The notes under the pieces: generated by a model
What the model was told of the DNA's origin: nothing
Seen by the model: the letters and a program-made list of their open reading frames with translations, nothing else
Databases searched by the model: none
DNA from: a bacterium
GTDB lineage: Bacteria; UBA9089; CG2-30-40-21; SBAY01
Length of the DNA: 26,837 bases
NCBI GenBank assembly: GCA_040757115.1
Contig: JBFLYA010000029.1
Coordinates: forward strand, 1 to 26,837
Direction: 5' to 3'
Part shown: piece after piece, positions 1,403-26,837 of the stretch
How the letters are laid out: each line of letters opens with the position of its first letter
Position numbering within the stretch: the first letter of the stretch is position 1
Program-made: the position numbers and the translations under genes

Positions 1403-1406
1403 TTTA

Positions 1407-1414
1407 ATCACCTT
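1407..1414 (-). promoter_or_regulatory. Ribosome binding site deciding the start of the PorV-like gene
   Basis: AAGGTGAT on the minus strand matches the anti-Shine-Dalgarno consensus AAGGAGGTGAT in its 3' portion. It ends 4 bases before the ATG at 1400-1402. Starting at the upstream GTG would put this element inside the coding sequence. Confidence 0.7.
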
Positions 1415-1608: not shown

Positions 1609-1990
1609 ATTTTATAATCCGTTTATATTCTAATGATGGTAATCCATAATTTATTATTATTCCCAATCTTAATCCTGTTGCTTTTAAATAATTATGCACT
1701 TGAGCCTCATCAATTTCTGTAATACCTTTATTAGTTGCTTTATTTTCTACAAGAATCTCTTTTTCTATAAGATAATCGGCTCTAAATTGTTTTTCTAATT
1801 TTTTCCCTTTATAAAATATTGGTAATTCTTTTTGATATTCAAAATACAGACCACTTCTCTCTAATTCAATACCAAAGGCTTCATCATACACTGATTCAAG
1901 GAATCCATAACCTAACTCCCTATGTACTTCCATCGCTGACCCAACTACTTTATAAGAAAGTTCCCTATAGATTATTTTTTCTTCCTTCAT
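1607..1990 (-). CDS. GxxExxY protein (PD-(D/E)xK nuclease-like fold)
   Basis: Complete 127-residue member of the GxxExxY family, whose biochemical role is not established; profile comparisons place it in the PD-(D/E)xK nuclease superfamily. The naming motif is G29-F-L-E32-S-V-Y35. A nuclease-like core follows with D72, then E82-N-K84 (spacing D-x9-ExK) in the ADYLIEKEILVENKA stretch. The conserved C-terminal segment EAQVHNYLKATGLRLGIIINYG covers about 95-116. The length is normal for the family. The ATG at 1990 is preceded directly by AAAGAAG, a weak and very close ribosome site; the next in-frame Met (residue 20) would remove the first conserved helix, so 1990 is preferred. The gene lies 38 bases after the giant gene's stop and is bracketed by inverted 9-mer arrays, which suggests independent arrival between the giant gene and the PorV-like gene. 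I see no reason to link it functionally to secretion. Confidence 0.93.
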   Translation of the reverse strand: MKEEKIIYRELSYKVVGSAMEVHRELGYGFLESVYDEAFGIELERSGLYFEYQKELPIFYKGKKLEKQFRADYLIEKEILVENKATNKGITEIDEAQVHNYLKATGLRLGIIINYGLPSLEYKRIIK

Positions 1991-2028: not shown

Positions 2029-2390
2029 TTATCGAATCACGGCAATCTTACCAAGTTTCGACATCGTCTTACCTTCGTTGTTGGAGATTATCATTCTAAA
2101 GATATAGACGCCATTAGCTACTTCTTTACCAACATCGTTTCTACCCTTCCATTCAATCTCAACTACCTGTTTAACTCCCTGAACAGTATTTCTTGAAGTA
2201 GAGGCTATGCCTGCTTTTTCCTCAGTCCACACCAGATCACCAGCAATATCATAAATATTCACGATTACTCTTAATCCGACGACTTGGGCGGTTGCATCTA
2301 ATACACCAACTATATCTGTTATACCATCATAAGTTGGGTTTGGACAGTTATAAGCATCGATTAAGTTAAAGTCTGTTGTCGTCCCATTCA
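2029..2390 (-). other. C-terminal FlgD-Ig / type IX sorting-like domain of the giant protein
   Basis: About the last 118 residues carry the hallmarks of the C-terminal domain that directs proteins to type IX secretion, related to the FlgD Ig-like fold: NCPNPTYDG at the start, VNIYDIAGDLVWTEE in the middle, then EWKGRNDVGKEVANGVYIFR, and a final GKIAVIR strand. The usual pattern is PNP...IYD..G.LV...W.G.ND.G..V.NGVY.Y.....G......K....R, and all parts are present in order. It follows a Pro-rich linker (SPAPPITPPLNG). Assignment as an actual secretion signal is inference, supported by the PorV-like gene nearby. Confidence 0.82.
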
Positions 2391-5300
2391 GAGGTGGAGT
2401 AATTGGCGGTGCAGGACTACCTTGTATGACGACAATAGGTCCTGTCATCGTCCCTCCTGTTGCTGAACCAACACACATCATCCCATCTTTTCCAATTGCA
2501 TTAAATAGATATGTATATGTGCCCGGTTCTGTAAAGCAAGGGAACACAATTCTATAATAACCATCCCATTTAGGTCCACTACCCGGAACTAAACTTAATG
2601 GGAAGGGACTACCAGCCATACGAACACCATCTTTATATAGCCAGAGATGGATATATTGAGGTTCATCACCATCTATATCATAATATCGAACTTTATAAGT
2701 AAATGAAGTTACATTTACTGTTCCATAATCAGGGTCAACTCCATCAGATGTAAATCCAGACTCACCTGTCCAGGTAAGTATTGGAGCATTGGTTACAGCA
2801 GGTCCAGTCTTATCTCCAGTAGCAGGTAATTTCACATCTAGATTAGCCGGATCATAAGCATTAATCCAATATTTATAACTTCCCGTCTGTAAAGTCGTAG
2901 TTGCCATATAAATTCCACAACTTTGCGTTCCAATTCCATCATTAAACCAGGTCATAGTTAAAGTAGCCACCTCATCACCATTCTTTTTAACATGCAATAG
3001 TGGATAGCCAGGTTTTGGCAGGTCATTATTCAAATCACGATATCTAACTTTGAAGGTAAAGATAGTTCCCGTTGTCCCCATTTCCGGGTCTAATCCATCA
3101 GATACATAACCACCTGTCCCTACCCATGATAATTCTGGTCTCCAATTACCTCCACCAGTAACTACAGGACCATAATTAGTAGAAGTAGGTGTTGCCATCT
3201 TCCGATATATATCCATTGCTTCAAAATAGTAGGAATAATTTGAGTTATTATATGGTAGTATTATTAGAGGATTAGAATATACCCTACCAGAACTAATATT
3301 TCCTCCATCATGATAAGGTAGTATCATTGGACTCCCTGGAATATCTACTCCACCAATTAATATATGAACCTTCGGATAGCCAGAATAAGGCACATTCCCT
3401 TCTGAATCTTGATATTTAACTGAGAAAGTATACCTGGTGCTTACATTACCACTAGGTGGATTCACATCACCATTAGATAATACTGGTGCACTATTAACAG
3501 CAGGTGCTATCTTCACTTGAATCCCTGCACCACCAGCTGTCAATCCTGTTATATCTTTTGCTTCAAATTGATAGGTATAGATACCTGTAGGTGCAGGTAA
3601 AGTAGTCCTTGTTTCATATAGGACACCCGCCGCATAAGTAACCGTTGCGGGACTTACTCTGGTTAACGGTAAGATTGTCTCAGCTCCTCCTGTAGTCTTG
3701 ATTTTTACCCGTGGATATCCGGCTAATGGTGCCTCATTATTCCCATCACTATATTTTACTCTATAGGTAAATATAGTGCTATCAGGCTCACCTTGTTCTG
3801 GGTCTAACCCATCATACAGATAGTTCCTTTCACCTGTCCATAACAAGAGCGGTGCGACAGGAGCATCAACCCCGGTCAATATAGGCCCAATATATTCTTG
3901 AGTTGGTGTTCCAAGAGCTAATACTCCATTTCTATCTTTTGCCGCAAAACGATATGTGTATGTCCCCGAATAAAGTAAACTGATAACAGTATAATATTCT
4001 ACTCCATTAACATAATCAATAGGAACTTTATACATCATCGGATAACCTATACCCTCATAAGGATACCCCGCTCCATTTCGACGGATATATACTTTTACAC
4101 CATCGGTAGGCGACGGAGGATCTCCATCAGTATCTTGATATATCACTTTAAAGGTAACTACTTTGGGTTTTGCACCAGTTTGAATATCCACCCCGCTTGT
4201 GCCATTATAAGGTGTTTGTGAAATAAAACTTAATACAGGTGGATTACTTATTTTAGGTCCTGTCTTTGTTCCCATTGGCTGAGATTGAGGATAAACTGAT
4301 GAAACTCCCTTTATATCCTTTACCTCAAATCTATATTTATAGTCTGTGCCCGTTAAGTATAATGGTAATTCTTTCTTATATAACTTACCATCTGTATAAG
4401 TTATATCTAATGGGTCATTATGGTCCATCACATAAGGGCTACCGGGCACGGGTTCATTATCACCTCTAAAAACATACAGTAATGGATAGCCACCTAATGG
4501 TGGGTCATTATCAGCATCGGTATATTTTACCAGATAAGTAAATGTATCTCCAGATTTACCTGTTTCTGGTTCAATACCATCATACAGATAATCAGTAATT
4601 CCTGCCCAGCTTAATACTGGTGGCTTACTAATTATTGGTCCAACCATCAAAGTCCAGGTTGGTGTGCCTTCAGCTGAAACTCCATTTATATTCTTTGCCT
4701 CAAATATATATGTATAAATACCCTGTAGAGTCAGTGGATATATCAGTGAATGTATCTGACCAGTCAGAGGGTTACCGGAAACATAGTACATTGGAAGTGT
4801 ATAGAGTAAGCTTCCCTCTCTATAAACCTTTACCCATACCCTATTGCCATATGGCAGGTTACCTGCGGAATCTTGATATTTTATCCGATAAGTATAAAGA
4901 TTATATGGAGAAGTACTTATCGGATAAACTCCACCTTCTTGGTAGTTAGGTTCACCCGTCCAACTCAAAATAGGTGGCAGACTAATCTTTGGACCTAAAT
5001 ATTGATATACTGGTGCACCAGCGGCATTACCACCCCAGCAATCTTTAGCCTCCATGCTATAGTAATAATTCCCTGTTGTTATCAATGTATTAGTTGCATA
5101 CACATAAACCGCACCACCTATCCAATCACCATCACCTGACTCTAATGTCATCGTCACCGTCGCCAATAAGGTTCTATCCGATTTATAAATATTTAATTGC
5201 GGATAACCTGGCATAGGATAATCATTATTAAAATCTTTATACAGCACTTTATAAGTAATTGTCGTTTCTGGTTTGGCAGAATTTGGATTAACACCATCAG

Positions 5301-8300
5301 TCCGATAACCATCCTGTTGTACCCAGCTCAATGATGGTATTCTATTTTGAGTTTGTTGATTTCCAACAGCAGGTCCTATTTGTCTCATTGTCGGACTACC
5401 AATGGCTATTCTACCGCCCTGATTCATTGCTTCAAATTTATGCGTATATGTGCCCGCTAAAGCTAATATTATTGTCTTTATCTGATAAACTTTACCATCA
5501 GTATAATCAGTATCACCTAGTGTTTCTTCGTAAAGTCCAGTAGTCACAAACAATTGATTTCCTAAATAGACATATAGCTTGGGATAACCTGGTGCTGGTC
5601 TTATATTCTCATAGTCAAAATATGTCACTTTGAAGGTAATATAAGAACCTACTATAGGATTCACGGGCAGTATCTCAGTTCCTGTAAGACAAGTTAGTCC
5701 AGGAAGAATTATAGGACCAGAGAATAGATTAGTAGGAGTCCCAATAGCTACCATTCCATAAATATCCGCCGCGGCAAATCTATATGTCCATGTCCCTTCT
5801 CCTAAACCTGTCATAGTACCTATATAAATACCATCAGATAATGTTCCACTACTTAACTGTAAATTAAGTGTTCCCGGATTACCACCTGGAGAAGTATATT
5901 GTGCCACTATATACGCTGGCATATTACCATCAGCATCAGAATATCTAATTCTGTAGGTAAATATCGTTTCATTATTACCATAAGTTGGTTCTAATCCTGG
6001 AGAGGCAAATGCAAGAACTGGAGCACGATTAATAAATGGTCCGTTCTGCCATAAAGTCGGGGTGCCACCTACTGGTTGACCATATGCTCTCGCTTCAATT
6101 CTGTAAGAATTCATCCCACCATAGTTAATACTCAATCTTGTTGTAAATGTAACTCCATATTCCCAATTTTCGCTATCTTGTATCATTTCATAATAAGTAG
6201 TTGTTCCACTTTGACTCATAAGATATAGTCGTATCAATTCAGGTCCAGTAGAACCTGTATATCTCACCTTAAATTCGAACATATCTCCTATCTGTCCAGT
6301 ATCGGGTTCTACGCCATCATCCGTATATCCTGGTGCTCCTAACCAACTAAGATATGGAAGGGTTACCACTGTTGGTCCTGAATTGATTAATGTTGGCGTT
6401 CCTTGTGCTTCTATAAATGTATCCGTTCCTATGGCTATTTGTACTTTAAATCTATGTGTATATGAACCTCTTACCAGAGAAGTCTCGGTACCATAAATCA
6501 CACCATCTCGATAAGGAGTTGCAGTTCCTCCCAGCAAGGAAATAGTACCCAGAGTATAAGTGGCATAGGGTAATCCATCTTTTTCTATAATCACTATTGG
6601 GCTATTTGTCCCAAATACTGGTGGCCGATTACTTGAATCTCGATACACTACCCGATAATTAAATAGCGTTCCCTCAGAGCCAACTTTTGGAGATACACCC
6701 GTATTGATATAGTCAGGTGCGCCTACCCAGCTAAGTGTTGGGAATTGTCCTACTCTTGGTCCCTCACGCCATACTCCTGAGACACCATTGGCTGGCGCTC
6801 CCCATTTATCATACGCCACAATATAATAGGAGTACATTCCATCTGGAAGGGTTGTTTGCTTTTCATATCGTGGAGCTGACCTCGGTAGATAACTATCTAT
6901 CTTTGTCATAGTCAATGAAGCATAAACATTAGCACCTTTATAAATAATCACCTTTGGATAGCCAGGTAATGGGTCATCATTATCAAAATCGTAATATCTT
7001 ATACGGTAAGTATAAATTGTAGTATTTAGACCCTCTTCTGGATTAAGTCCATCCTGTGTATAACCAGACTCTCCTGTCCATCGTAACTGAGGTGGTGAAG
7101 TTCGATAATAGACATTTTCAAATCTATATGTCCATGAACCGATATTTTCCTTATTCTGAACAATATCTGCCGCATAATACCCTGCCTGGTTAAATTGTGA
7201 CAGAGCAACTGTAACTGAGAATGTTCCCACATCAGATACAACCACTTCTGGATGTTCAGTCGGATTGCCACCTACCTTAATACTATTCATTAGTATAGTC
7301 GTTCCACCTGTCGTCCCATAGAATCCTGAACCTGTTATAGTACTTGTATTACCCGTTTGACCACTACCTGCACATGGATTCATTATAATCCACGGGACAA
7401 CCCTATAACTATCTGCAAATACAAATTCCTCGCCTGAGACTATCATATGAACCGTATAAGTTCCCCACGGCATCGCTGGTAATGTCAAAGTAGTTGTTGG
7501 TAAAATACCTCCTGGTTGAATAGTTATTGTGGCATGTTGTGCGGTAAATGCACCATTGAATTTAATAGAATTAGCACTTACGGTTGCTCCTTCCATAAAT
7601 CCTCTACCTGAAATCTGAGTAGTAGCACCTTCTTGTCCATGACCACCATCTGGATTTAAGAATATTCTGACCAGCGTAAAGGTAGTAGATGCTACTTCAC
7701 CTGTTATCAAACCACTGGCACTAATTACCACCGGACCAGGTATCTGAACATCAGCCATAAATTGCGTTGAGAATGTCCCATTATCAGAAGTTGTTGCACA
7801 AGATATGGTTGGATTACCACCAAAAGCTACCGTGATGAATTCACTCGCTCCAAAACCTGTTCCATACAAAATAACTTGAGTTGCCACAATACCGCTTCTC
7901 GGCGATACCACCACCCCACCTCTTATCTTAAATAGATTAATCATCTGCGAATTATCACTAATTACTGTAATTGTCTTTGTTCCAAAAGTTTGAGTATCAA
8001 CGGTAAATATCGCCGTAAAACTACCTTCCACTGCGGCTGCGGTTGAACAAATAGTTAGCGTCTGACCAAAGTGTATTGAGATATTCTCTCCTGACTTATA
8101 TCCTTGACCGGTAACGGTTATCAATCGTCCTACGGTCCCTTGTTGTGGTGTAACATAAGTCATCGGATTTATAAAGAAGTAGTCATAATCTTGACCTGAC
8201 TTTAATCCTAAAGCAATTATCGTGGTTGACCCATAAGGTTGCGTATCAACGGTAAAGGTTGTAGTAAAGGTACCATTTATCTTAGAAATAGTTATTGTAA

Positions 8301-11300
8301 TCGTCTGAGTTATCCCAAAGTGAATATAAATCTCCTCTGTTCCGGCATAACCAGTCCCTTTAACTGTAACAATGGTTCCTACCGTACCTTGACCTGGACT
8401 CACATAGATAACATCGGGTAATATCTTGAAGTAATTAATTGCCTGACAACCTGTAGCAATTATCGTTGTTGACCCATAAGGTTGTGTATTAACCGTGAAG
8501 GTAGTAGTAAAGGTGCCTTCGATGGTTGAAGTAGTAGTCGTAATAGTCTTAGTAGTCCCAAAGTGGATATAAATCACTTTGTTGGCACCATAACCTGTTC
8601 CGCTAATGGTAACTATTGTCCCTACCGTTCCTTCAGTTGGAGTAACCATAAATATCTCTGGTAGAATTCTGAAGTAATTCTGTGCTTGCGAAGAAGTTAA
8701 TCCAATCCCAATAATTGTCGTTGTGCCATAAGGTTGCGTATTAATCGTAAATGTTGTTGTGAAACTACCTTGAATATCTGACATAGTAGTTGTTATTGTC
8801 TTTGTCGTCCCAAAGTCCACATAAATATCTTCTCCCCCGGCATAACCTGTGCCACGAATAGTAATTATTGTCCCAACGGTGCCCTCTGTTGGTGTAACAA
8901 GACATACATCTGGAATTATCTTGAAGTAATTTGTCCCTTTGCCAAATGAACCTTGTGCAATTATCGTAGTCGTGCCATAAGGTTGAGTATCTATAGTAAA
9001 TGTAGTAGCAAATGTTCCTGATTCACTTGAAGTAATAACCGTAATACTCGGTGTTGTGCCAAAATCTACCCTTATCTCTTCATTAGATCTATAACCACTA
9101 CCTTTAATGGTAACTATTGTTCCTACTGTGCCTTTAGTTGGAGTTACAGCATATATCTCTGGTAGTATCGCAAAGTAGTTAATGGCAAAACCTGATTTAT
9201 CGGCTATCGCCGTAATCGTTGTGCTCCCACAAGGTTGCATATTTACTGTAAATTTCGTCGTCCAGCTACCTTGTATAGCTACTTGAGTGGTTGTAATGGT
9301 AAGCGTTGTCCCAAAGTGGATATAGACTGTTTCTTGATAGGCATAACCTGTCCCACGAATAGTAACGATTGTTCCTACTGTCCCTTCTGATGGATTAACT
9401 TGCCACAGGTCGGGTAGAATGGTAAAGTAAGTTGTGGCTGAACCTGTATCTGAACTTATCGTTCTAACGGTAGTGGTGCCATAAGGTTGTGTATCAATGG
9501 TAAAGGTCACGGTAAATGTTCCGGCTTCAGTAGCGATAACTTTCGTAATTGAAGGTGTTGTGCCAAAATTAATCCTTATCTCTTCACTTGCCGCATATCC
9601 TGTTCCAAATACCGTCACTATTGACCCCACCGTGCCAGATGTCGGCGATACCTCAACTCCACCAATAATCACAAAATAGTTAATATTGGTTTCCTGATTA
9701 ATACCTGTGGCTCTAATCGTTGTCTTACCTAATATTTGCGTATTTACGGTAAATGTCGTGGTGAAACTTCCCTCTATTTCTGCTTGAGTAAGGGTGATAG
9801 ATTCTGTCGTGCCAAAGTTTATTCGCACCTCACCTGGCGTATAACCAGTTCCACGAATAGTTAGAATTGTTCCTATTGTTCCTTTTGTTGGAGTTACAAA
9901 CCACAACTCTGGTGTAATCTTAAAGTAGTTAATTGACTCACTACAACTACCAACGCCAGTGATAGTTGTTGCCCCATAAGGTTGTGTATCCACTGTAAAT
10001 GTTGTGGTAAAGCTTCCCTGTATCTCTGAGATAACCGTGGTAATCGTCCTGGTTGTGCCAAAGTGGATATAAATCTCTTCTGTCCCAATATAACCATTAC
10101 CTTTTATTGTTACTTTTGTGCCTACAGTCCCTTCTGTTGGACTGACCATAAACAATGCCGGTAATATCTTAAAGTAATTAATGGCAACTGCGGACTTCAA
10201 GCCCAATGCTACCACAGTTGTAGTTCCATAAGGTTGAGTATCAATGGTAAAGGTAGTTGTCACACTTCCTTCGATGCCTGAAACAGTAGTGGTAATAGTA
10301 TTGCGTATTCCAAAGTGGATATAAACTGTCTCACTGCTGGCATAACCTGTTCCACAAATAGTTATTATTGTTCCTATTGTTCCCTCTGTTGGTGTTACTG
10401 AAACTAATTGTGGAGTTATCTTCAGGTAATTAATTGCCTCAGCAGACTTCAATCCTCCTGCGAGAATCGTTGTCGTGCCATACGGTTGTGTATCAATGGT
10501 AAATGTTGTTGTAATACTTCCTTCTATGGCGGAAACAGTAGTAGTAATCGTCTTATTCGTGCCAAAGTGGATATAGACATCCTCTGTCCCGGCATAACCT
10601 GTGCCACGAATGGTAATTATTGTTCCTACTGTCGCTGAAGTCGGTGTAACATCCCAAATTTGAGGTGTTATCTTAAAGTAGGAAATATCCTCTCCAGAAC
10701 CAAATCCTACCCCAGTAATTGTTGTTGAACCATAAGGTTGTGTATCAATAGTAAATGTTGTCGTGAAACTACCTTCAATTGCGGCTGAGGTCGTCGTAAT
10801 TGTCTTTGTCGTGCCAAAATGGACATACAACTCTTCTAATCCGGCATAACCAGTCCCACGAATGGTAACGATTGTCCCCACGGTCCCAATTGATGGACTC
10901 ACCATAATTACATCTGGTATTATCTTAAAGTAATTAATACCTTCTATGGCTGATGAGAGACCAGTGGCAATAATTGTTGTTGACCCATAAACCTGCGTAT
11001 CAATTGTAAATGTAAGGATAAAGACGCCTGTGTCTATTACATGACCTGTAGTTATCGTCGTCTTGTTACCAAAACTTATCTGGACAGTCTCACTGGGTTG
11101 ATATCCTGTTCCACTAATGGTTACTATCGTCCCCACGGTCCCTTCCTTCGGTGAAACTAAGTATAACTCGCCTAACACTTTGAAGTAAGCAATATTTGAA
11201 TCTGACCGTAATCCAAGCGCAGTAATAGTTGTTGAGCCATAAGCCTGTGGGTTAATCGTAAATGTTGTTGTCCAGCTACCAGCGATATCTGAAACCGTAG

Positions 11301-20300: not shown

Positions 20301-23300
20301 ACGAACCTGCTATATTCGAAGAAGTAGTGGTAATCGTATTTGTTGTGCCAAAATGTATAGTTATATCTTTAAACGCCCCATATCCCATCCCACTGATGGT
20401 AACTATCGTCCCTACCGTCCCTTCAGTCGGTGTAACCTCGTAAACTGAAGATAATACCATAAAGTAGTTAATAGCCTTATCTGAACTCAACCCAACGGCA
20501 GTAATAGTTGTAGAGCCATAAGATTGGGTATCTACGGTAAAGGTAGTGCTAAAGCTACCCTGTATGTCTGCAGATGTAGTCGTTATCGTGTTAGTTGTGC
20601 CAAACTGGATATAGACTAACTCATTCGCCGCATATCCTGTCCCTCGAATCGTTACTATCTTACCTACTGTCCCTTCTGCTGGATTGACAGACCAAACTTG
20701 AGGCAGTATCTTGAAGTCGTTGCTTGCCTGACCGGAATTTAACCCTACTGAAGTTATCGTTGTAGAACCATAAGGTTGTGTATCTATGGTAAATGTAGTC
20801 GTAAAGCTACCCTGTCCATCTACAGATGTTGTCGTTATCGTATTAGTCGTGCCCAAGTGAATATAGACTAACTCATTCGCCGCATAACCTGTCCCTCGAA
20901 TCGTTACTACCTTCCCTACTGTCCCTTCTGCTGGATTAACATACCACAACTCTGGCAGTATCTTGAAGTGGTTAATTGCCAGAGAACCTAATGCCGTTAT
21001 CGTTGTCGTCCCATAAGGTTGTGTATCTATGGTAAAGGTAGTGGTAAATGAACCGGCTATGTTCGATAAAGTAGTAGCAATGGTGTTTGTCGTGCCAAAA
21101 TGTATGGTTATGTCTTTGAACGCACCATAACCCGCGGCACTTATCGTAACTATTGTTCCTACTGTCCCTTCTGTCGGTGTAACTTGATAAACTGAAGATA
21201 ATATCTTAAAGTAGTTACTTGCCTTATCTGAACTCAAACCTAATGCTGTAATCGTTGTAGAACCATAAGGTTCTGTATCTATGGTAAATGTAGTGGTGAA
21301 ACTACCTTCATTGGCTGAAGAAGTAGTTCTTATCGTGTTAGTCGTGCCAAAGTGGATATAAACTAACTCATTCGCCGCATAGCCTGTCCCTCGAATCGTT
21401 ACTATACTCCCTACTGTTCCTTCAACTGGACTGACATACCATAATTCTGGCAGTATCTTGAAGTCATTGCTTGCCTGACCTGAATTCAAGCCTACTGCAG
21501 TTATCGTTGTAGAACCATAAGGTTGAGTATCTATGGTGAATGTCGTTGTCCAGCTACCTTCTATATCTACAGATGTTGTCGTTATGGTGTTGGTCGTGCC
21601 AAAGTGGATATAGACTAATTCCTGTGCCGTATATCCTGTCCCTCGAATCGTTACTACCTTACCTACCGTCCCTTCTGCTGGATTGACATACCACAACTCT
21701 GGCAGTATCTTGAAGTAGTTAATTGCCACAGAACCTAATGCCGTTATCGTTGTCGTGCCATAAGGTTGTGTATCTACGGTAAATGTTGTAGTCCATGAAC
21801 CTGCGATATTCGTAGAAGTAGTCGTAATGGTATTAGTTGTTCCAAAATGTATGGTTATGTCTTTGAACGCCCCATATCCCATTCCACTGATGGTAACGAT
21901 TGTTCCTACCGTTCCTTCAATCGGTGTAACCTGATAAACTGAAGATAATATCTTAAAGTAGTTGCTTGCCTTATCTGAACTTAATCCTGAGGCTGTAATC
22001 GTTGTAGAGCCATAAGGTTGTGTATCTATGGTAAATGTTGTTGTGAAACTACCTTCTATACCTGCAGATGTAGTCGTTATGGTGTTAGTTGTGCCAAAGT
22101 GGATATAAACTAATTCCTGCCCTTCATATCCTGTCCCTTTTATCGTTACTATAGTTCCTACTGTCCCTTCGGTTGGAGTTACAAACCAAAGTTCTGGCAG
22201 TATCTTGAAGTAGCTAACCGCCTGCCGTAAATCTGAATCTGATGCTGTTATTGTTGTAGAGCCATAATTCTGGGTATCAATTGTAAAGGTAGTGGTAAAG
22301 CTGCCTTCGGCACAGGTAGAAGTCAATTGAATTGTTTGTGTTGTCCCAAAATCTATTCTTATCGTATCTGATGCCCTGAATCCATTTCCTCTCACGGTTA
22401 TTACTGTTCCCACTGTTCCAGAATCTGGTGTAACCAGAACAATATTCGATGACACAGTTAATGTCCCTTCTGCGAATATTCCGTTTCCATAGGCAATAAT
22501 GGTTGTTATACCCGCCTGTTGTGTATCTATGGTAAATGTGGTGGTGAAACTTCCCTCTGCGTAGGTAGAGATTATCTGTATTGTTGGCGTAGTCCCAAAT
22601 TCTACCCTGATTGTCTCTGATGCTCGATAACCATTTCCTCTTAATGTTACTATCGTTCCTACTGTCCCTGAATTTGGTGTAATCAGAATAATATTAGGTA
22701 ATATGGTCAATGTGCCTGCAGATAATATTCCATTTCCATGACTAACAATAGTTGTTCTGCCATAAGGTTGTGTATCTATAGTAAAGGTGGTGGTGAAACT
22801 ACCTTCGGCATAGGTAGAAGTTAGTTGTATTGTAGGCGTAGTCCCAAATTCTACCCTTATTATCTCTGATGCTCCATAACCATTCCCTCGAACTGTGATT
22901 ATCGTTCCTACTGTCCCTGAACTCGGTGTAATCAAAATGGTATTAGGTAATATGGTTAATGTGCCTGCGGATAATATCCCGTTTCCATGAGCAATAATAG
23001 TGGTTATACCATAAGGTTGTGTATCTATGGTAAATGTAGTAGTCCAACTCCCTTCTGCATAAGTAGAGGTTAGTTGTATAGTTGGCGTAGTCCCAAATTC
23101 TACCCTGATTATTTCGAATGCCCAATATCCATTCCCTCTTAAGGTTATTATCGTTCCTACGGTTCCTGAAGTTGGTGTAACAAGAATGATATTGGGTTGA
23201 ATACTAATAGTCCCTTGAGCCGAAATGCCTTGTGCATCTCCATGAGCAACAATCGTTGTTATGCCATATTGTTGTGTATCTATGGTAAATGTGGTAGTGA

Positions 23301-26300
23301 AGCTACCATATACTTCTGTTGAAACTAATTGAATTGTTGGAGTAATACCAAATGCTATTCTTACCGTATCCGATGCGGCATAGCCATTTCCACTCACAGT
23401 TATTATCATTCCCACTGTCCCTGAACTCGGTGTAATCAGAATGATATTAGGTAAGATGGTAAATGTTCCTGATGCATCCTCACTTCCATGTGTGGTAATA
23501 GTCGTAATACCATAAGGTTGAGTATCAATTGTCCAGGTAGTGGTAAAGCTGCCTTCGGCATAGGTAGAGGTAATTTGAATAGTAGATGTCGTTCCAAAGT
23601 CTATGCTTAAAGTCTTGGATGCCCCAAATCCATTACCTTGTAATGTTACTACCGTGCCCACAGTTCCACTATTGGGTGTAATGTTAATTATATTTGGAAT
23701 AATGAAGAAGTAGCCTTCTGCCGAACTCATATTGGTAGCAATAATCGTTGTTGTTCCATATCTCTGGGTATCTATCGTAAAGGTAGCAGTAAATGACCCT
23801 ATTTCATCCGTAGAAGTAGTCGTTATAGTTGGATGTGTTCCAAAACTAATGGTTATTGTCTCTGACGCCCCATAACCATTACCGGCTACGGTTATTATCG
23901 TTCCCACAGTTCCAATAGAAGGCGTAACGGTAATGATATTAGGTATAATAGAGAGGTCATCAACAGCATAACTTGAGTCTAATCCTCTGGCAATAATAGT
24001 TGTAGAACCATATTTCTGGGTATCAATAGTAAAGGTTGTAGTAAATGAACCGATGTTATCACTTGAAGTGGTAGTAATAGTAGAATAATTACCAAAGTCA
24101 ATTTGGACTTTTTCATTCGCCTTGTATCCATTTCCTTTCAAAGTAACTATTGTGCCTACACTACCTCTATCAGGTGAAACGACAATAATATTTGGTATGA
24201 TAAATACCTGGGTTATTTCCTCTTCACCAGAAGTTAGACCTTTAATTACCACAGTGGTATTTCCATAAGGTTGTGTATCAATGGTAAAGATAGCGGTATA
24301 AGTTCCTACCGCATTTGAAGTCGCTGTTCCGATAGTCGTAGTTGTTCCAAAACTAATCCGTATTGTCTCGGTAGCTCCATACCCATCACCTTGCACGGTA
24401 ATAGTTGTGCCCACAGTTCCAATGATAGGAGTAGTATAGGTAATTCTGCCAATAATATCAAATATTCTATCTTCAAAGTCTAAAGTCAGCACATCTTGAA
24501 CCATGACAGTAGTTGAACCTGCAGGTTGCGTATCAACCGTAAAGGTAGTAGCAAATCTTCCTCCTGTATCAGCAGTTAGGACAACAATACTTCTCGTTGT
24601 GCCAAAATCTATTCTTATTTCATTTCCTACACCAAAACCACTTCCTTTAATATCAACGATGGTTCCAATAGTCCCAAAGACAGGTGATATAAATGAGATA
24701 CCAGGTATAACGGTAAATGTAGCTACCCCTTGTGCACCCGTTGTAAGACCTGTAGCAGTTACTGTTTGATTTGCAGATACCTCAGGCACAGTAAAGATTG
24801 ATGTAAATTGCCCATTTCGTTGAGAAGTAACATAAGTTAATGTCGGTTTGTCGCTAAAATCAATCCGGACAGATTCTGAGGCGCCAAATCCATCACCATA
24901 AACTGTAATTTCAAGTCCAATAGCACCTTTAGGTGGCACTATCTTAACAATTCTACTCTTCATATCGAAGAAATTACTTGCCTGATGTGCATTTTGTTGT
25001 CCTACTGCTGTGATAGTAGTAGTCGCATAAGGTTGAGCATTGGCAGTAAATGTTGTTGTCCAACTACCCTCTATATCAGAAACAACCGTAGTAATGGTAT
25101 TAGTTATACCGAAGTGGATATAAACCACCTCTGTCCCACAATAGCCCGTGCCTCTTATCGTAATAGTCGTGCCTACTGTCCCGGAAGTTGGAGTTACAGA
25201 CCACAACTCTGGTAATATCTTGAAGTCATTTATCGCCTCGCCTAAATTCAGACCTACCGCAGTAATTGTTGTTGAACCATACGGTTGTGTATTAACAGTA
25301 AATGTTGTAGTCCAGCTCCCTTCGATTGCCGCTGATGTCGTGGTAATCGTCTTTGTTGTCCCAAAGTGGATATAAATTAACTCATTCGCCGCATAGCCGG
25401 TGCCTCGGATTGTTACGATTGTTCCCACTGTCCCTTCGGCTAACACCACTGACCATAATTCTGGCAGTATCTTGAAGTCATTTATGGCACTACCTGAACT
25501 CAGACCTACCGCAGTGATTGTCATCGAACCATACGGTTGTGTATCAATAGTAAATGTCGTTGTGAAACTACCTTCGATTACGGCTGAGGTCGTCGTAATC
25601 GTCTTTGTTGTGCCAAAGTGAATGTAAATTAACTCATTTGCCGCATAACCGGTGCCTCGGATTGTTACGATTGTCCCTACTGTCCCTTCCGCAAGCACCA
25701 CTGACCATAATTCTGGCAATATCTTGAAGTTATTTATGGCACTACCTGAATTCAAGCCAACTGCTGTTATCGTTGTCGAACCATAAGGTTGCGTATCAAT
25801 GGTAAATGTTGTTGTGAAACTACCTTCGATTGCGGCTGAGGTCGTTGTAATTGTCTTTGTTGTCCCAAAGTGAATGTAAACTAACTCATTCGCCGCATAG
25901 CCGGTCCCTCGTATCGTAACAATTGTCCCAACTGTCCCTTCTGCAAGCACCACTGACCATAACTCTGGCAATATCTTGAAGTAATTAATCCCTTCTCCAC
26001 CACTTGTTAATCCTGTTGCCTTGATTGTGGTTCTATCATAAGGTTGTGTATCGATGGTAAAGGTAACTGTCCAGCTACCTGTTCCATCTGCCTGTGTTGT
26101 GGTAATACTTGATGTTGTGCCAAAGTCTATTCTTACTTCTTCATTGGCTTTATAACCTGTGCCTTTAATCGTAACAATTGTTCCTACTGTGCCCTCTGTT
26201 GGTGTTACTGAATATAACTCAACAGTTATCTTGAAGTAATTTATCGCACTGTTAGAATTCAATCCTACAGCGGTTATTGTCGTCGAGCCAAATCCTTGTG

Positions 26301-26837
26301 TATCAACAGTGAATGTTGTCGTGAAACTACCTTCGATTGCGGCTGAGGTCGTCGTGATTGTCTTTGTTGTGCCAAAATGAATGTAAATTAACTCATTCGC
26401 CGCATAGCCTGTGCCTCGTATCGTCACGATTGTTCCAACTGTTCCTTCTTTTGGCGTTACAGACCATAATTCCGGTAATATCTTGAAGTCATTTATGGCA
26501 CTACCTGAATTCAAGCCAACCGCTGTTATCGTCGTCGAACCATAAGGTTGTGTATCAATAGTAAATATCGTTGTGAAACTACCTTCGATTGCGGCTGAGG
26601 TCGTTGTGATTGTCTTTGTTGTGCCAAAGTGAATGTAAACTAACTCATTCGCCGCATAACCGGTGCCTCGGATTGTTACGATTGTCCCTACTGTCCCTTC
26701 GGCTAACACCACTGACCATAACTCTGGCAGTATCTTGAAGTCATTTATGGCACTACCTGAATTCAATCCAACCGCTGTTATCGTCGTCGAACCATAAGGT
26801 TGCGTATCAATGGTAAATGTTGTTGTGAAACTACCTT
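2029..26837 (-). CDS. Giant IPT/TIG- and Ig-like repeat surface protein (5'-partial, at least 8,268 aa)
   Basis: The frame stays open from the TAA at 2029-2031 to the window edge; the real start lies outside, and the Met at 26766 sits inside a repeat and is not a start. In order it contains a partial repeat, about 76 IPT/TIG-like repeats of 82-85 residues (consensus core EGTVGTIVTIRGTGY, then VYIHFGTTNTITTT, GSFTTTFTIDTQPYGSTTIT and INYFKI), two degenerate IPT-like domains, 13 Ig-like repeats of about 120 residues, and a C-terminal FlgD/type IX sorting-like domain. The protein is very rich in Thr, Gly, Ile and Val, poor in Cys, and shows no membrane segment or enzyme motif. Such architecture is typical of secreted adhesins or fibres. 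A size above 8,000 residues is exceptional. The PorV-like gene two genes downstream suggests type IX-like export (inference). The ligand, the anchor and the N-terminal domain cannot be told from this window. Confidence 0.97.
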   Translation of the reverse strand, partial: GSFTTTFTIDTQPYGSTTITAVGLNSGSAINDFKILPELWSVVLAEGTVGTIVTIRGTGYAANELVYIHFGTTKTITTTSAAIEGSFTTIFTIDTQPYGSTTITAVGLNSGSAINDFKILPELWSVTPKEGTVGTIVTIRGTGYAANELIYIHFGTTKTITTTSAAIEGSFTTTFTVDTQGFGSTTITAVGLNSNSAINYFKITVELYSVTPTEGTVGTIVTIKGTGYKANEEVRIDFGTTSSITTTQADGTGSWTVTFTIDTQPYDRTTIKATGLTSGGEGINYFKILPELWSVVLAEGTVGTIVTIRGTGYAANELVYIHFGTTKTITTTSAAIEGSFTTTFTIDTQPYGSTTITAVGLNSGSAINNFKILPELWSVVLAEGTVGTIVTIRGTGYAANELIYIHFGTTKTITTTSAVIEGSFTTTFTIDTQPYGSMTITAVGLSSGSAINDFKILPELWSVVLAEGTVGTIVTIRGTGYAANELIYIHFGTTKTITTTSAAIEGSWTTTFTVNTQPYGSTTITAVGLNLGEAINDFKILPELWSVTPTSGTVGTTITIRGTGYCGTEVVYIHFGITNTITTVVSDIEGSWTTTFTANAQPYATTTITAVGQQNAHQASNFFDMKSRIVKIVPPKGAIGLEITVYGDGFGASESVRIDFSDKPTLTYVTSQRNGQFTSIFTVPEVSANQTVTATGLTTGAQGVATFTVIPGISFISPVFGTIGTIVDIKGSGFGVGNEIRIDFGTTRSIVVLTADTGGRFATTFTVDTQPAGSTTVMVQDVLTLDFEDRIFDIIGRITYTTPIIGTVGTTITVQGDGYGATETIRISFGTTTTIGTATSNAVGTYTAIFTIDTQPYGNTTVVIKGLTSGEEEITQVFIIPNIIVVSPDRGSVGTIVTLKGNGYKANEKVQIDFGNYSTITTTSSDNIGSFTTTFTIDTQKYGSTTIIARGLDSSYAVDDLSIIPNIITVTPSIGTVGTIITVAGNGYGASETITISFGTHPTITTTSTDEIGSFTATFTIDTQRYGTTTIIATNMSSAEGYFFIIPNIINITPNSGTVGTVVTLQGNGFGASKTLSIDFGTTSTIQITSTYAEGSFTTTWTIDTQPYGITTITTHGSEDASGTFTILPNIILITPSSGTVGMIITVSGNGYAASDTVRIAFGITPTIQLVSTEVYGSFTTTFTIDTQQYGITTIVAHGDAQGISAQGTISIQPNIILVTPTSGTVGTIITLRGNGYWAFEIIRVEFGTTPTIQLTSTYAEGSWTTTFTIDTQPYGITTIIAHGNGILSAGTLTILPNTILITPSSGTVGTIITVRGNGYGASEIIRVEFGTTPTIQLTSTYAEGSFTTTFTIDTQPYGRTTIVSHGNGILSAGTLTILPNIILITPNSGTVGTIVTLRGNGYRASETIRVEFGTTPTIQIISTYAEGSFTTTFTIDTQQAGITTIIAYGNGIFAEGTLTVSSNIVLVTPDSGTVGTVITVRGNGFRASDTIRIDFGTTQTIQLTSTCAEGSFTTTFTIDTQNYGSTTITASDSDLRQAVSYFKILPELWFVTPTEGTVGTIVTIKGTGYEGQELVYIHFGTTNTITTTSAGIEGSFTTTFTIDTQPYGSTTITASGLSSDKASNYFKILSSVYQVTPIEGTVGTIVTISGMGYGAFKDITIHFGTTNTITTTSTNIAGSWTTTFTVDTQPYGTTTITALGSVAINYFKILPELWYVNPAEGTVGKVVTIRGTGYTAQELVYIHFGTTNTITTTSVDIEGSWTTTFTIDTQPYGSTTITAVGLNSGQASNDFKILPELWYVSPVEGTVGSIVTIRGTGYAANELVYIHFGTTNTIRTTSSANEGSFTTTFTIDTEPYGSTTITALGLSSDKASNYFKILSSVYQVTPTEGTVGTIVTISAAGYGAFKDITIHFGTTNTIATTLSNIAGSFTTTFTIDTQPYGTTTITALGSLAINHFKILPELWYVNPAEGTVGKVVTIRGTGYAANELVYIHLGTTNTITTTSVDGQGSFTTTFTIDTQPYGSTTITSVGLNSGQASNDFKILPQVWSVNPAEGTVGKIVTIRGTGYAANELVYIQFGTTNTITTTSADIQGSFSTTFTVDTQSYGSTTITAVGLSSDKAINYFMVLSSVYEVTPTEGTVGTIVTISGMGYGAFKDITIHFGTTNTITTTSSNIAGSFTTTFTVDTQPYGTTTITAIGSKAINYFKILSELWYVNPAEGTVGKVVTIRGTGYAANELVYIHFGTTNTITTTSADIQGRFTTTFTIDTQPYGSTTITSVGLNSGQASNDFKILPELWSVNPAEGTVGKVVTIRGTGYAANERIYIHFGTTNTITIVSSDIQGSFTTTFTVDTQPYGSTTITALGLNSGQATNDFKILPELWSVNPAEGTVGSIVTIRGTGYAANELVYIHFGTTKTITTTSSANEGSFTTTFTIDTQPYGFTTITALGLNSDKASNDFKILPELWYVEPAEGTGGNIVTIRGTGYAANELVYIHFGTTNTITTTSVDIQGSFTTTFTIDTQPYGSTTITALGLSSGQASNDFKILPELWYVSPAEGTVGKVITIRGTGYAANELVYIHFGTINTIMTTSVDTQGSFTTTFTIDTQPYGFTTITALGLSSGQASNDFKILPQVWSVNPVEGTVGMIVTIRGTGYAANERIYIHFGTTNTITTTSSDGQGSWTTTFTIDTQSYGSTTITAVGLSSDKASNYFMILSSVYQVTPTEGTVGTIVTISGMGYGANKDITIHFGTTNTITTTVSNIAGSFTTTFTIDTQPYGTTTITALGSKAINYFKILPQVWYVNPAEGTVGSIVTIRGTGYAANELVYIHFGTTNTITTTSSDIQGSFTTTFTIDTQNYGSTTITALGLSSGQAINDYKIMPAVWYVIPPKGTVGSTVMIRGTGYEANELVYIHFGTTKTITTTSADIQGSFSTTFTVDTQSYGSTTITAVGLSSDKAINYFMVLSSVYEVTPTEGTVGTIVTISGMGYGAFKDITIHFGTTNTITTTSSNIAGSFTTTFTVDTQPYGTTTITALGSKAINYFKILPQVWYVNPAEGTVGKVITIRGTGYAANELVYVHFGTTNTITTTSADIQGSFTTTFTIDTQPYGSTTITALGLSSGQASNDFKILPELWYVNPAEGTVGKIVTIRGTGYAANERIYIHFGTTNTITTTSAAIEGSFTTTFTVDTQPYRSTTITALGLNSGQATNDFKILPELWYVNPAEGTVGQVVMIRGTGYAANERIYIHFGTTNTITTVSSDIQGSFTTTFTVDTQPYGSTTITALGLNSGQATNDFKILPELWYVNPAEGTVGSMVTIRGRGYAANELVYIHFGTTKTITTTSAAIEGSFTTTFTIDTQPYGSTTITALGLSSDKAINDFKILPELWSVVLAEGTVGTIVTIRGTGYAANELVYIHFGTTNTITTTSVDVEGSWTTTFTIDTQPYGSTTITALGLSSGQASNDFKILPELWYVNPAEGTVGSIVTIRGTGYAANELVYIHFGTTNTITTTSSAIEGSFTTTFTIDTQSYGSTTITALGLSSDKATNYFMILSSVYEVTPTEGTVGTVVTISGMGYGANKDITIHFGTTNTITTTMSNIAGSFTTTFTIDTQPYGATTITALGSKAINYFKILPELWYVNPAEGTVGKIVTIRGTGYAANELVYIHFGTTYTITTTSSAIEGSFTTTFTVDTQPYGSTTITALGLSSDKAINDFKILPELWSVSPTEGTVGKIVTIRGTGYAANELVYIHFGTTNTITTTSADGQGIWTTTFTIDTQSCGSTTITAVGLSSGSAINYFKIMAELYSVTPTEGTVGTIVTIRGTGYLASEQIRIDFGVKSTITTTQADGIGSWTVTFTIDTQAYGNTTIKATGLISQGEGINYFKILPELWYVGPAEGTVGQVVTIRGTGYAANELVYIHFGTTNTITTISSDIQGSFTTTFTIDTQPYGSTTITALGLSSDKAINDFKILPELWSVVLAEGTVGTVVTIRGTGYAAQELIYIHFGTTNTITTTSAAIEGSFTTTFTIDTQPYGSTTITALGLSSGQASNDFKILPELWSVVLGEGIVGTIVTIRGTGYAANELVYIHFGTTKTITTTSVAIEGSFTTTFTIDTQPYGSTTITALGLSSGQASNNFKILPELWSVVLGEGTVGTIVTIRGTGYAGNETVYIHFGTTKTITTTSAAIEGSFTTTFTIDTQPYGSTTITAVGLNSGSAINNFKILPELWFVTPKEETVGTIVTIRGTGYAANETVYIHFGTTKTITTTSAAIEGSFTTTFTIDTQPYGSTTITAVGLNSGSAINDFKILPELWSVTPKEGTVGTIVTIRGTGYAANELIYIHLGTTKTITTTSAAIEGSFTTTFTVDIQGFGSTTITAVGLNSNSAINYFKITVELYSVTPTEGTVGTIITIKGTGYKANEGIRIDFGTTSSITTTQADETGSWTATFTINTQPYDRTTIKATGLTSGGEGINYFKILPELWSVVLAEGIVGTIVTIRGTGYAGNELVYIHFGTTKTITTTSAAIEGSFTTTFTIDTQPYGSTTITAVGLNSGSAINDFKILPELWFVNPAEGTVGKIVTIRGTGYAANETVYIHFGTTKTITTVSSVIEGSFTTTFTIDTQPYGTTTIVASGLNLGEAINYFRVLPEVFSVSPKEGTVGTIVTICGTGYGANKTINVHFGITNTITTASSDIIGSFTATFTVDTQPYGTTTIVATGCSAINYFKILPDVWYVTPTSGTVGSIVTVRGTGYAASEEVYVHFGTTKTIITTVSAQEGSFTTTFTVDTQAYGTTTIIAVGLGSGEAINYYRITPDLWYVNPQQGTVGTIVTIKGTGYTPGEVRIDFGTTQTITTTQADNTGSLTTTFTIDTQPLGITTIAATGANAERNINFFTITGGIRISPTTGSVGTIVTVFGNGYAATEQICVDFGTTPTLAITTTDNIGSFTVTFTVTTQPYGTTTIIVTGPKAGSVSTTFFITPELFMVSPDTGTVGTVITIRGTGYAGREDVYIHFGTTQTITITTSAIEGSFTTTFTINTQPYGSTTITGLGLNSSSAINYFKIIPQIIQVTPDTGTVGTIITIRGTGYGNGEDVFIHFGTTQTITRTITDIEGSWTTTFTIDTQPYGTTTIISVGETTPQAINYFKITPEIIMVTPTQGTVGTIVTISGTGYAGTEEVYIHFGTTKTITTTVSDIAGSWTTTFTINPQAYGSTTITALGLRSDSNIAYFKVLGELYLVSPKEGTVGTIVTISGTGYQPSETVQISFGNKTTITTGHVIDTGVFILTFTIDTQVYGSTTIIATGLSSAIEGINYFKIIPDVIMVSPSIGTVGTIVTIRGTGYAGLEELYVHFGTTKTITTTSAAIEGSFTTTFTIDTQPYGSTTITGVGFGSGEDISYFKITPQIWDVTPTSATVGTIITIRGTGYAGTEDVYIHFGTNKTITTTVSAIEGSITTTFTIDTQPYGTTTILAGGLKSAEAINYLKITPQLVSVTPTEGTIGTIITICGTGYASSETVYIHFGIRNTITTTVSGIEGSVTTTFTIDTQPYGTTTVVALGLKSAVAINYFKILPALFMVSPTEGTVGTKVTIKGNGYIGTEEIYIHFGTTRTITTVISEIQGSFTTTFTVDTQPYGATTITGVGSCSESINYFKITPELWFVTPTKGTIGTILTIRGTGYTPGEVRINFGTTESITLTQAEIEGSFTTTFTVNTQILGKTTIRATGINQETNINYFVIIGGVEVSPTSGTVGSIVTVFGTGYAASEEIRINFGTTPSITKVIATEAGTFTVTFTIDTQPYGTTTVRTISSDTGSATTYFTILPDLWQVNPSEGTVGTIVTIRGTGYAYQETVYIHFGTTLTITTTQVAIQGSWTTKFTVNMQPCGSTTITAIADKSGFAINYFAILPEIYAVTPTKGTVGTIVTIKGSGYRSNEEIRVDFGTTPSITVITSSESGTFATTFTIDTQPYGTTTIIAQGSFGKGTNYFKIIPDVCLVTPTEGTVGTIITIRGTGYAGGEDIYVDFGTTKTITTTMSDIQGSFTTTFTINTQPYGTTTIIGIGLTSSQAQNYFRILPEIFMVTPTEGTVGTIVTISGTGYGANKVIYIHFGTTKTITTTTSTIEGTFTTTFTVNTQPYGSTTIIATGCQAINYFKILPDVIYVSPGQGTVGTIVTVKGTGYAGTEEIYIHFGITQTITITISKINGTFTTTFTVDTQPYGSTTIIALGLKSGQDYDYFFINPMTYVTPQQGTVGRLITVTGQGYKSGENISIHFGQTLTICSTAAAVEGSFTAIFTVDTQTFGTKTITVISDNSQMINLFKIRGGVVVSPRSGIVATQVILYGTGFGASEFITVAFGGNPTISCATTSDNGTFSTQFMADVQIPGPVVISASGLITGEVASTTFTLVRIFLNPDGGHGQEGATTQISGRGFMEGATVSANSIKFNGAFTAQHATITIQPGGILPTTTLTLPAMPWGTYTVHMIVSGEEFVFADSYRVVPWIIMNPCAGSGQTGNTSTITGSGFYGTTGGTTILMNSIKVGGNPTEHPEVVVSDVGTFSVTVALSQFNQAGYYAADIVQNKENIGSWTYRFENVYYRTSPPQLRWTGESGYTQDGLNPEEGLNTTIYTYRIRYYDFDNDDPLPGYPKVIIYKGANVYASLTMTKIDSYLPRSAPRYEKQTTLPDGMYSYYIVAYDKWGAPANGVSGVWREGPRVGQFPTLSWVGAPDYINTGVSPKVGSEGTLFNYRVVYRDSSNRPPVFGTNSPIVIIEKDGLPYATYTLGTISLLGGTATPYRDGVIYGTETSLVRGSYTHRFKVQIAIGTDTFIEAQGTPTLINSGPTVVTLPYLSWLGAPGYTDDGVEPDTGQIGDMFEFKVRYTGSTGPELIRLYLMSQSGTTTYYEMIQDSENWEYGVTFTTRLSINYGGMNSYRIEARAYGQPVGGTPTLWQNGPFINRAPVLAFASPGLEPTYGNNETIFTYRIRYSDADGNMPAYIVAQYTSPGGNPGTLNLQLSSGTLSDGIYIGTMTGLGEGTWTYRFAAADIYGMVAIGTPTNLFSGPIILPGLTCLTGTEILPVNPIVGSYITFKVTYFDYENIRPAPGYPKLYVYLGNQLFVTTGLYEETLGDTDYTDGKVYQIKTIILALAGTYTHKFEAMNQGGRIAIGSPTMRQIGPAVGNQQTQNRIPSLSWVQQDGYRTDGVNPNSAKPETTITYKVLYKDFNNDYPMPGYPQLNIYKSDRTLLATVTMTLESGDGDWIGGAVYVYATNTLITTGNYYYSMEAKDCWGGNAAGAPVYQYLGPKISLPPILSWTGEPNYQEGGVYPISTSPYNLYTYRIKYQDSAGNLPYGNRVWVKVYREGSLLYTLPMYYVSGNPLTGQIHSLIYPLTLQGIYTYIFEAKNINGVSAEGTPTWTLMVGPIISKPPVLSWAGITDYLYDGIEPETGKSGDTFTYLVKYTDADNDPPLGGYPLLYVFRGDNEPVPGSPYVMDHNDPLDITYTDGKLYKKELPLYLTGTDYKYRFEVKDIKGVSSVYPQSQPMGTKTGPKISNPPVLSFISQTPYNGTSGVDIQTGAKPKVVTFKVIYQDTDGDPPSPTDGVKVYIRRNGAGYPYEGIGYPMMYKVPIDYVNGVEYYTVISLLYSGTYTYRFAAKDRNGVLALGTPTQEYIGPILTGVDAPVAPLLLWTGERNYLYDGLDPEQGEPDSTIFTYRVKYSDGNNEAPLAGYPRVKIKTTGGAETILPLTRVSPATVTYAAGVLYETRTTLPAPTGIYTYQFEAKDITGLTAGGAGIQVKIAPAVNSAPVLSNGDVNPPSGNVSTRYTFSVKYQDSEGNVPYSGYPKVHILIGGVDIPGSPMILPYHDGGNISSGRVYSNPLIILPYNNSNYSYYFEAMDIYRKMATPTSTNYGPVVTGGGNWRPELSWVGTGGYVSDGLDPEMGTTGTIFTFKVRYRDLNNDLPKPGYPLLHVKKNGDEVATLTMTWFNDGIGTQSCGIYMATTTLQTGSYKYWINAYDPANLDVKLPATGDKTGPAVTNAPILTWTGESGFTSDGVDPDYGTVNVTSFTYKVRYYDIDGDEPQYIHLWLYKDGVRMAGSPFPLSLVPGSGPKWDGYYRIVFPCFTEPGTYTYLFNAIGKDGMMCVGSATGGTMTGPIVVIQGSPAPPITPPLNGTTTDFNLIDAYNCPNPTYDGITDIVGVLDATAQVVGLRVIVNIYDIAGDLVWTEEKAGIASTSRNTVQGVKQVVEIEWKGRNDVGKEVANGVYIFRMIISNNEGKTMSKLGKIAVIR
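2391..7095 (-). repeat. 13 tandem Ig-like repeats (LSWTGE-type, about 120 aa) in the giant protein
   Basis: Thirteen modules begin near 7095, 6744, 6360, 6026, 5706, 5341, 4977, 4623, 4234, 3857, 3496, 3148 and 2794. The pattern is P-x-LSW-x-G-x-x-x-Y-x-x-DG-x-x-PE-x-G, then FTYRVKY-x-D-x-[DN]-[GN]-[DN]-x-P-x-x-GYP, a strand such as VYIYKG, an exposed DG-x-Y region, GTYTYRFEAKD, and finally GTPT-x-x-x-GP-x-I. They are far more diverged from one another than the IPT repeats, so they are older. The fold is inferred to be an Ig/fibronectin-like sandwich; I cannot give a family name. The acidic D-x-[DN]-x-[DN] loop could bind calcium. Confidence 0.85.
7096..7671 (-). repeat. Two degenerate IPT-like domains linking the two repeat types
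   Basis: Two modules of about 95 residues begin near 7671 (IFLNPDGGHGQEGATTQISG) and near 7404 (IIMNPCAGSGQTGNTSTITG). They retain the N-terminal IPT signature P-x-x-G-x-x-G-x-x-x-x-I-x-G-x-G-F but have insertions (SANSIKFNG, MNSIKVGG) and lack the HFGTT and DTQPYG motifs. They form the junction between the 84-residue array and the Ig-like array. Confidence 0.75.
7672..12924 (-). repeat. IPT/TIG repeats 56-76: diverging C-terminal section
   Basis: Twenty-one copies averaging 250 bp. All keep GT(V/I)GTIVTI-x-G-x-GY and the DTQPYG turn, but strand and loop residues vary much more than in the central array. Some copies have the shortened TPGEVRI loop, others the short C-SAINYFKI ending. A recurrent 3-4 repeat module occurs at 11932-12924, 9418-10164 and 7672-8664. 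The numbering counts complete repeats in protein order from 26730. Confidence 0.88.
17727..18080 (-). repeat. Copy A of a nearly identical ~355-bp segment (partner 2,502 bp away)
   Basis: This stretch aligns with 20229-20582 at a constant offset of 2,502 bases, with only a handful of differences by eye; identity drops beyond both ends. It covers most of repeats 35 and 36, whose partners are repeats 25 and 26. The offset equals ten repeat units. Confidence 0.8.
20229..20582 (-). repeat. Copy B of the nearly identical ~355-bp segment
   Basis: Partner of 17727-18080. The run from TAAACTGAAG at 20441 to the GTCTGCAGATGTAGT region near 20580 appears identical to the run starting at 17939. Neighbouring repeats at the same offset are clearly less similar, which points to recent duplication or local gene conversion. 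Confidence 0.8.
22201..24960 (-). repeat. IPT/TIG repeats 8-18: divergent island
   Basis: Eleven copies averaging 251 bp that differ strongly from the arrays on both sides. Repeats 8-10 are the most diverged (KIVPPKGAIGLEITVYG, ISFISPVFGTIGTIVDI). Repeats 13-18 form their own subfamily: IILITPSSGTVGTIIT then RGNGYGASEIIRVEFGTTPT and IQLTSTYAEGSF, ending AGTLTI instead of INYFKI. The island separates two homogeneous arrays that resemble one another. Confidence 0.88.
24961..26837 (-). repeat. IPT/TIG repeats 1-7 plus a partial repeat at the window edge
   Basis: Seven complete copies from 26730 downward, preceded by the last ~35 codons of another copy reaching the edge. Repeats 1-6 carry LPELWSVVLAEG or TPKEG starts and the IHFGTTKTITTTSAAIEGSF form, and closely resemble repeats 48-55 about 12.5 kb away rather than the adjacent divergent island. 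Repeat 7 (GTGYCGTEVVYIHFG) is transitional. The array evidently continues outside the window. Confidence 0.9.

Follow-up and report, generated by a model that had tools for sequence, protein, structure and literature searches.

A stop-free frame of 8,268 codons as the C-terminal part of a giant gene encoding tandem IPT-like units and a type-IX-like tail

An open frame at the end of a contig and its neighbours

The window, by which we mean the whole 26,837-nucleotide stretch of DNA that was analysed, is the complete contig C29 of the genome G000 (4.32 Mb in 462 contigs, 99.9% complete). Most of it is taken up by one minus-strand frame (2029..26835, -), which runs from position 26835 down to 2029 through 8,268 codons without a stop and closes on a stop codon at 2029-2031. 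Translation and orthology to two contigs of a second genome of the same genus (G001 C2 and C323) identify this frame as the C-terminal part of a giant gene, the 5′ end of which lies past the contig edge. Fifty nucleotide shuffles of the 8,268-codon frame gave a mean of 540 stops and a minimum of 490, against zero in the real frame, and there are 698 and 576 stops in the remaining two sense frames of the window and 400-825 in the antisense frames. A preliminary description of this DNA had proposed a single open frame for a product larger than 8,268 residues, which holds, the same-genus orthologue being ~45,769 aa long.

The encoded product is almost entirely repetitive. Residues 1-6390 (7666..26835, -) consist of 77 tandem IPT-like units of 81-85 aa each, arranged without linkers and found using an HMM trained on repeats of the window itself, the first unit being cut by the contig edge. 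Two degenerate IPT-like units follow (residues ~6391-6574; 7114..7665, -), which were recognized by eye in the translation only, as the unit HMM gave no match to residues 6391-6574. Thereafter come 13 tandem Ig-like units (residues 6575-8131; 2443..7113, -; profile search, each E ≤ 4e-17) and a last domain of ~114 aa, separate from the Ig-like units and akin by profile and structure matches to the type-IX-like tails of PorU and PorZ (residues 8155-8268; 2032..2373, -). The counts put forward earlier from the letters (~76 IPT-like, two degenerate and 13 Ig-like repeats) were thus essentially exact, and Tandem Repeats Finder independently reported periods of 243-252 bp in the window.

Downstream of the giant gene lies a gene for a PorV/PorQ-family outer-membrane protein (446..1411, -; NF033709 131.7 bits against a cut-off of 90, PF19572 37.7 against 27), and a PorV-family gene occupies the syntenic position downstream of the giant in G001 too. 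A GxxExxY-family protein (PDDEXK_3) is encoded at window positions 1607-1990 (-; TIGR04256 132.7 bits against 35), in the interval that separates the giant from the PorV-family gene; no counterpart was seen at the matching site of G001 C323, pointing to an insertion. Short intergenic tandem repeats, for example AAATTCCAAATCAC, occur at window positions 18-49, 271-308 and 411-442, downstream of the PorV-family gene.

The gene in two species and its relatives

The largest contig found in G000, C1 (85,129 bp), is one stop-free frame from end to end, encoding 28,375 aa with 306 IPT-like units from residue 1,745 onward, and the other two frames of the same strand contain 2,155 and 2,216 stops. Its longest exact internal repeat is 44 bp, so that its assembly is not ambiguous on that ground. 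In G001, the end of contig C1 equals the start of C2 in an exact 127-bp overlap and the frame continues across the join, giving 44,836 continuous amino acids, well over 30,000 in a single frame, from an ATG at C1:64259 without a stop once a 100-N scaffold gap is closed; this gap lies near the 5′ end of the gene, and the sequence across it matches a second downstream copy. The last 665 aa of the orthologue are on C323. We assembled a G001-based composite by closing the 100-N gap and filling 268 aa between C2 and C323 from the window sequence. It amounts to 45,769 aa and 4.83 MDa without a stop, with 19% Thr and 0.3% Cys; the pI, calculated for the first 20,000 residues, is ~5.4. Its 488 IPT-like units form one array, in which uncovered stretches are at most 130 aa long. 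The start and the signal peptide, which the preliminary description had expected upstream of the contig, were both found in the G001 orthologue, where the order is signal peptide, ~2,000 residues of other N-terminal repeats, IPT-like array, 13 Ig-like units and tail.

Compared in 600-base steps, G000 C1 is collinear with the G001 gene over ~26.7-104 kb, and the window aligns with ~134-160 kb of that gene, followed by C323; the orthologous steps are mostly 80-98% identical and paralogous units ~70%. Since G001 C2 alone carries counterparts of both the end of G000 C1 and the window, C1 and C29 belong to one gene; two separate genes were considered and ruled out, because both orthologous parts lie in one frame on G001 C2. 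The two assemblies also bridge each other's breaks, as G000 C1 crosses the G001 C1/C2 join and G001 C2 spans the gap in G000. One-to-one order is lost in G000 C1 at 51-57 kb and over window coding positions 0-13.8 kb, and the sequences indicate that repeat blocks there have been gained, lost or reshuffled in frame. For 20 kb in the middle of the gene (G001 C2:20-40 kb) the G000 bin yielded no orthologue, only paralogous units at 65-68% identity, and the giant's N terminus was not found in that bin either; these parts are either unbinned or absent, which makes 36,643 aa in two pieces (28,375 + 8,268) a lower bound for G000. Contigs C122, C274 and C152, tried as missing pieces, did not match the giant. 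Exact repeats of 186 bp in G001 and 173 bp in the window leave the local copy number uncertain. All giant lengths given here, except a 9,685-aa frame in G046 mentioned below, come from direct translation, which was used because the frame-length column of the search gives differing values for matches that share a contig and a frame (G002 C222, G003 C55). The protein is among the largest predicted so far and is not a size record.

Long IPT frames extend beyond the genus. In the same order but another family, G004 (Yes70-11) has IPT frames of 19,075 and 11,115 aa, open at both ends, and a C-terminal contig that aligns at 38% identity with the window's end along practically the whole 2,056 aa; G005, from that other family too, has an 18,588-aa IPT frame. 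The relatives are the MAGs Yes70-11, Yes70-31, Yes70-25, DeMMO4_10 and Bin_21_1, several of them deep-subsurface by isolate label. Smaller IPT proteins were seen as well: several of 1,300-4,400 aa with similar tails on G000 contigs C13, C122, C6, C43, C152 and C12 (L026-L034), and one of 645 aa upstream of the giant in G001, which may resemble the giant's progenitor. Contig C112 of G046, from another phylum, likewise carries a long IPT frame with a reported length of 9,685 aa, and long IPT arrays may accordingly have more than one origin.

Predicted fold, export route and divergence

Four single units of the window passed the PF01833 (IPT/TIG) cut-off of 20.9 bits, at 21.6-23.8 bits, and the same profile gave 71 matches at E ≤ 0.001 in G000, mostly in C1. 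Most single units score under the cut-off, yet they tile with the four that pass, and we regard them as IPT-like from their similarity to those four and from their predicted fold. An AlphaFold2 model of two consecutive units (pLDDT 96) was all beta, with seven strands per unit and almost no linker, in keeping with the earlier expectation that the repeats fold as beta-sandwiches. Structures matching the unit model included tandem adhesin extenders (6xi3, Z 10.3), invasin and Bap, a stretch of CGTase and the IPT domains of Met and plexin (Z 8.3-9.5). An S-layer protein and RbmA were among the fold matches too. Because Z values of ~8-10 are common among sandwiches, these matches support the Ig-like/E-set class, and this predicted fold agrees with the units that exceed the IPT/TIG cut-off. 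The model of the Ig-like units plus tail was of middling confidence (pLDDT 74). The last Ig-like unit (residues 218-341 of the piece 2032-3441, -) matches one module of a xanthanase structure (6fhj residues 818-921; Z 12.3, rmsd 2.0, 22% identity), which we note as a lead towards possible polysaccharide binding by this unit. Weak Pfam hits to Gal-bind_lectin, SKICH, Filamin, MG4 and DUF5077 were summed weak repeat matches or below cut-off and were left unused, and a match to an enediyne chromoprotein (28.5 bits against a cut-off of 86) was taken as general sandwich likeness.

The terminal domain is related to the very end of PorU (profile E 3.3e-10; structure Z 11.5, 25% identity) and to the PorZ structure (32% identity), and NF033707 matches it locally at 40.5 bits. 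It scores under the curated type IX cut-offs, at 16.7 against 23 for TIGR04183 (type A) and 20.6 against 27 for CHU_C (PF13585); the earlier suggestion of a type IX-like tail is borne out by the kinship to the C-terminal domains of PorU and PorZ. Matches of the tail profile to CD59 had only a Cys/Asn/Pro-rich motif in common and were taken as chance. Elsewhere, G000 encodes a SprA-like protein of 2,011 aa (193.3 bits against a cut-off of 200; SprA structures E 6e-20), a relative of which was present in all 19 genomes searched in the phylum, as well as several C25-family proteases, among its C25-family proteins being one with a CHU_C-like tail and a PorU-like match of 86.5 against 420. Taken together, the PorU/PorZ-like tail, the PorV-family neighbour and the SprA-like and C25 proteins make export by a type-IX-like route likely on sequence grounds. 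At the other end, the G001 orthologue begins with an extended signal region ending FVIGTVVFCFEGLAKA, and this N-terminal signal peptide is the only hydrophobic, membrane-like segment of the composite. An unusually long region before the signal-peptide core is shared by the giant and two small neighbouring proteins (L068 3252-4259, -, and neighbours upstream on G001 C1) (METESSKPNQHNNLFITRF..., MNTESSKPNQHNLFITR... and METESSRPNQYNLFITR...), which resembles the extended signal peptides of autotransporters.

To characterize divergence, the G000 sequences were compared with their G001 counterparts. All 95 of the 95 strong orthologous matches begin in the same frame, and differences concentrate at third codon positions (2,965, against 914 at first and 848 at second positions). 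The dN/dS was 0.21 across C1 and 0.16 across the window's IPT part (some pairs being paralogous), and 0.25-0.34 in one-to-one IPT blocks; the PorV-family neighbour had 0.13. The preliminary description had taken the stop-free frame as proof of selection for the full-length product. Selection on that product is indeed supported, by the dN/dS of 0.16-0.34 in the IPT array together with the shared frame, although the absence of stops is by itself insufficient. The Ig array and tail (2032-7113, -) behaved differently, with a dN/dS of 0.83 (1.06 in the first 760 codons) at similar dS, differing from one IPT block at Fisher p 2e-5; relative to synonymous change, amino acids here change ~3x faster than in the IPT array. 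This may reflect relaxed selection, diversifying selection or recombination, as seen in a comparison of two sequences. Set against the conserved spacer, the fast evolution of the Ig array hints at where binding specificity may reside, and the array could be a binding region under diversifying selection.

Proposed function and comparison with known systems

We read the window as the C-terminal end of a single gene encoding a secreted, multi-megadalton surface protein, which is probably exported by a type-IX-like route as an ultralong tether or filament. The chain would cross the inner membrane by Sec; at the outer membrane, its C-terminal domain and the PorV-like partner would direct it through the SprA-like translocon, after which it would stay at the cell surface as a tether or filament of ~2 micrometres. 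Ig-type domains span roughly 4 nm per unit, and at ~4 nm each the ~490 IPT-like units, the 13 Ig-like units and the N-terminal units give this stretched length of ~2 micrometres. The IPT array would serve as a mechanically stable spacer that lengthens or shortens as repeat blocks are added or removed in frame. Binding or anchoring would fall to the N-terminal region and to the Ig array, which evolves faster; we infer the surface tether or filament function from the architecture alone. An artefact or pseudogene is strongly disfavoured by the purifying selection, the 95/95 same-frame segments and the confident all-beta model. As far as the sequence permits, the stops, frameshifts, chimeric joins and non-sandwich repeats that would speak against the first description were searched for, and none was met.

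The main rival to the tether or filament reading is a matrix or coat protein, shed or packed on the surface, that would act in many copies as a sheath or biofilm matrix instead of as single-chain tethers. This reading is unlikely. In its favour, a Thr-rich chain almost devoid of Cys would fit a coat that is abundant and perhaps glycosylated, Bap, an S-layer protein and RbmA are among the fold matches, and a coat has been proposed for the giant of Velamenicoccus (PMC10066038). Against it, likeness in Ig-type sandwich fold says little about function, and no self-assembly element was recognised in the sequence. We consider it distinctly improbable that the protein is a predatory weapon degrading the wall or polysaccharides of other cells, although predation is the published reading of giants in Omnitrophota and relatives (PMC12057145, PMC10066038) and the last Ig-like unit resembles the 6fhj module. 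The window's Ig-like units and tail and the N-terminal parts that were searched yielded no enzyme family, an array with no uncovered stretch above 130 aa has no room for an enzyme, and the chain has a single membrane-like segment, not many.

That the giant is an assembly product, with repeats of several smaller IPT genes concatenated and no single giant gene behind them, is very improbable. The array is repetitive, with exact repeats of up to 173-186 bp in places, several smaller IPT frames exist in G000, and C29 ends within the array; yet G000 C1 has no exact repeat above 44 bp, the other G000 IPT contigs do not match the giant, the giant frames contain zero stops, and two separately assembled species are collinear at 80-98% identity while spanning each other's breaks. 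Hardly credible, finally, is a precursor cut after export into many small sandwich proteins, an idea to which the close likeness of the units and the several C25-family proteases of the genome lend something: sequence and two-unit model alike show the units abutting without a linker, which leaves no obvious recurring cleavage site.

Returning to the ultralong tether or filament, its fullest form would be a polypeptide of ~46,000 residues and 500 tandem sandwiches that leaves the cell intact by type-IX-like export and stands on the surface as a single-molecule filament of ~2 micrometres, its length evolving by in-frame turnover of repeat blocks. We offer this as a tentative and somewhat doubtful possibility; were it true, the array would to our knowledge be the longest uninterrupted one of a single domain type. 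Most giants have been described as poorly annotated and poorly conserved, whereas here the whole architecture of a giant gene is readable and comparable in two species. This makes it testable whether proteins of nearly 5 MDa are made, exported and kept by bacteria, whether a type-IX-like system can carry them, and how such arrays grow.

Among known systems, titin (~35,000 aa) is likewise one chain of hundreds of Ig-type sandwiches, with no homology implied; the protein here is bacterial, predicted to be extracellular and built on one homogeneous array, and has no kinase domain. The adhesins SiiE and Bap and those of RTX type (with extender repeats such as 6xi3) also have a cell anchor and a binding region that are separated by long arrays of Ig-type sandwiches; they are far smaller, and SiiE and the RTX adhesins use type I secretion, in contrast to the signal peptide, type-IX-like tail and IPT-like array found here. 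Type IX substrates (PorU, PorZ, gingipain-like) share a related C-terminal domain with the giant, which adjoins a PorV-family gene, but the tail falls below the type A and CHU_C cut-offs and the host is not known as Bacteroidota.

In the same size class are the giant ORFs of Omnitrophota and PVC bacteria, which likewise come from uncultured, subsurface-type organisms and are presumed to act extracellularly at the surface. Published examples agree with the earlier statement that very large proteins are known from some candidate phyla: the giant of Velamenicoccus archaeovorus LiM has 39,678 aa and 42 predicted transmembrane helices (PMC10066038), giant genes of up to ~85,800 aa in PVC clades are attributed to West-Roberts 2023 as cited (PMC12057145), and proteins of more than 5,000 aa have already been surveyed (PMC11573180). 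A literature search found no paper linking IPT arrays with giant proteins, the West-Roberts gene list lying outside that search. Many transmembrane helices and few annotated, poorly conserved domains characterize the Omnitrophota and PVC giants; multiple helices of this kind are absent from the 45,769-aa composite, which has one hydrophobic segment, and the protein instead combines one signal peptide with a near-pure single-domain array, a type-IX-like tail and a conserved orthologue. Giant bacterial genes are already established, and what sets this one apart is the almost pure one-domain array, the type-IX-like tail and the close orthologue.
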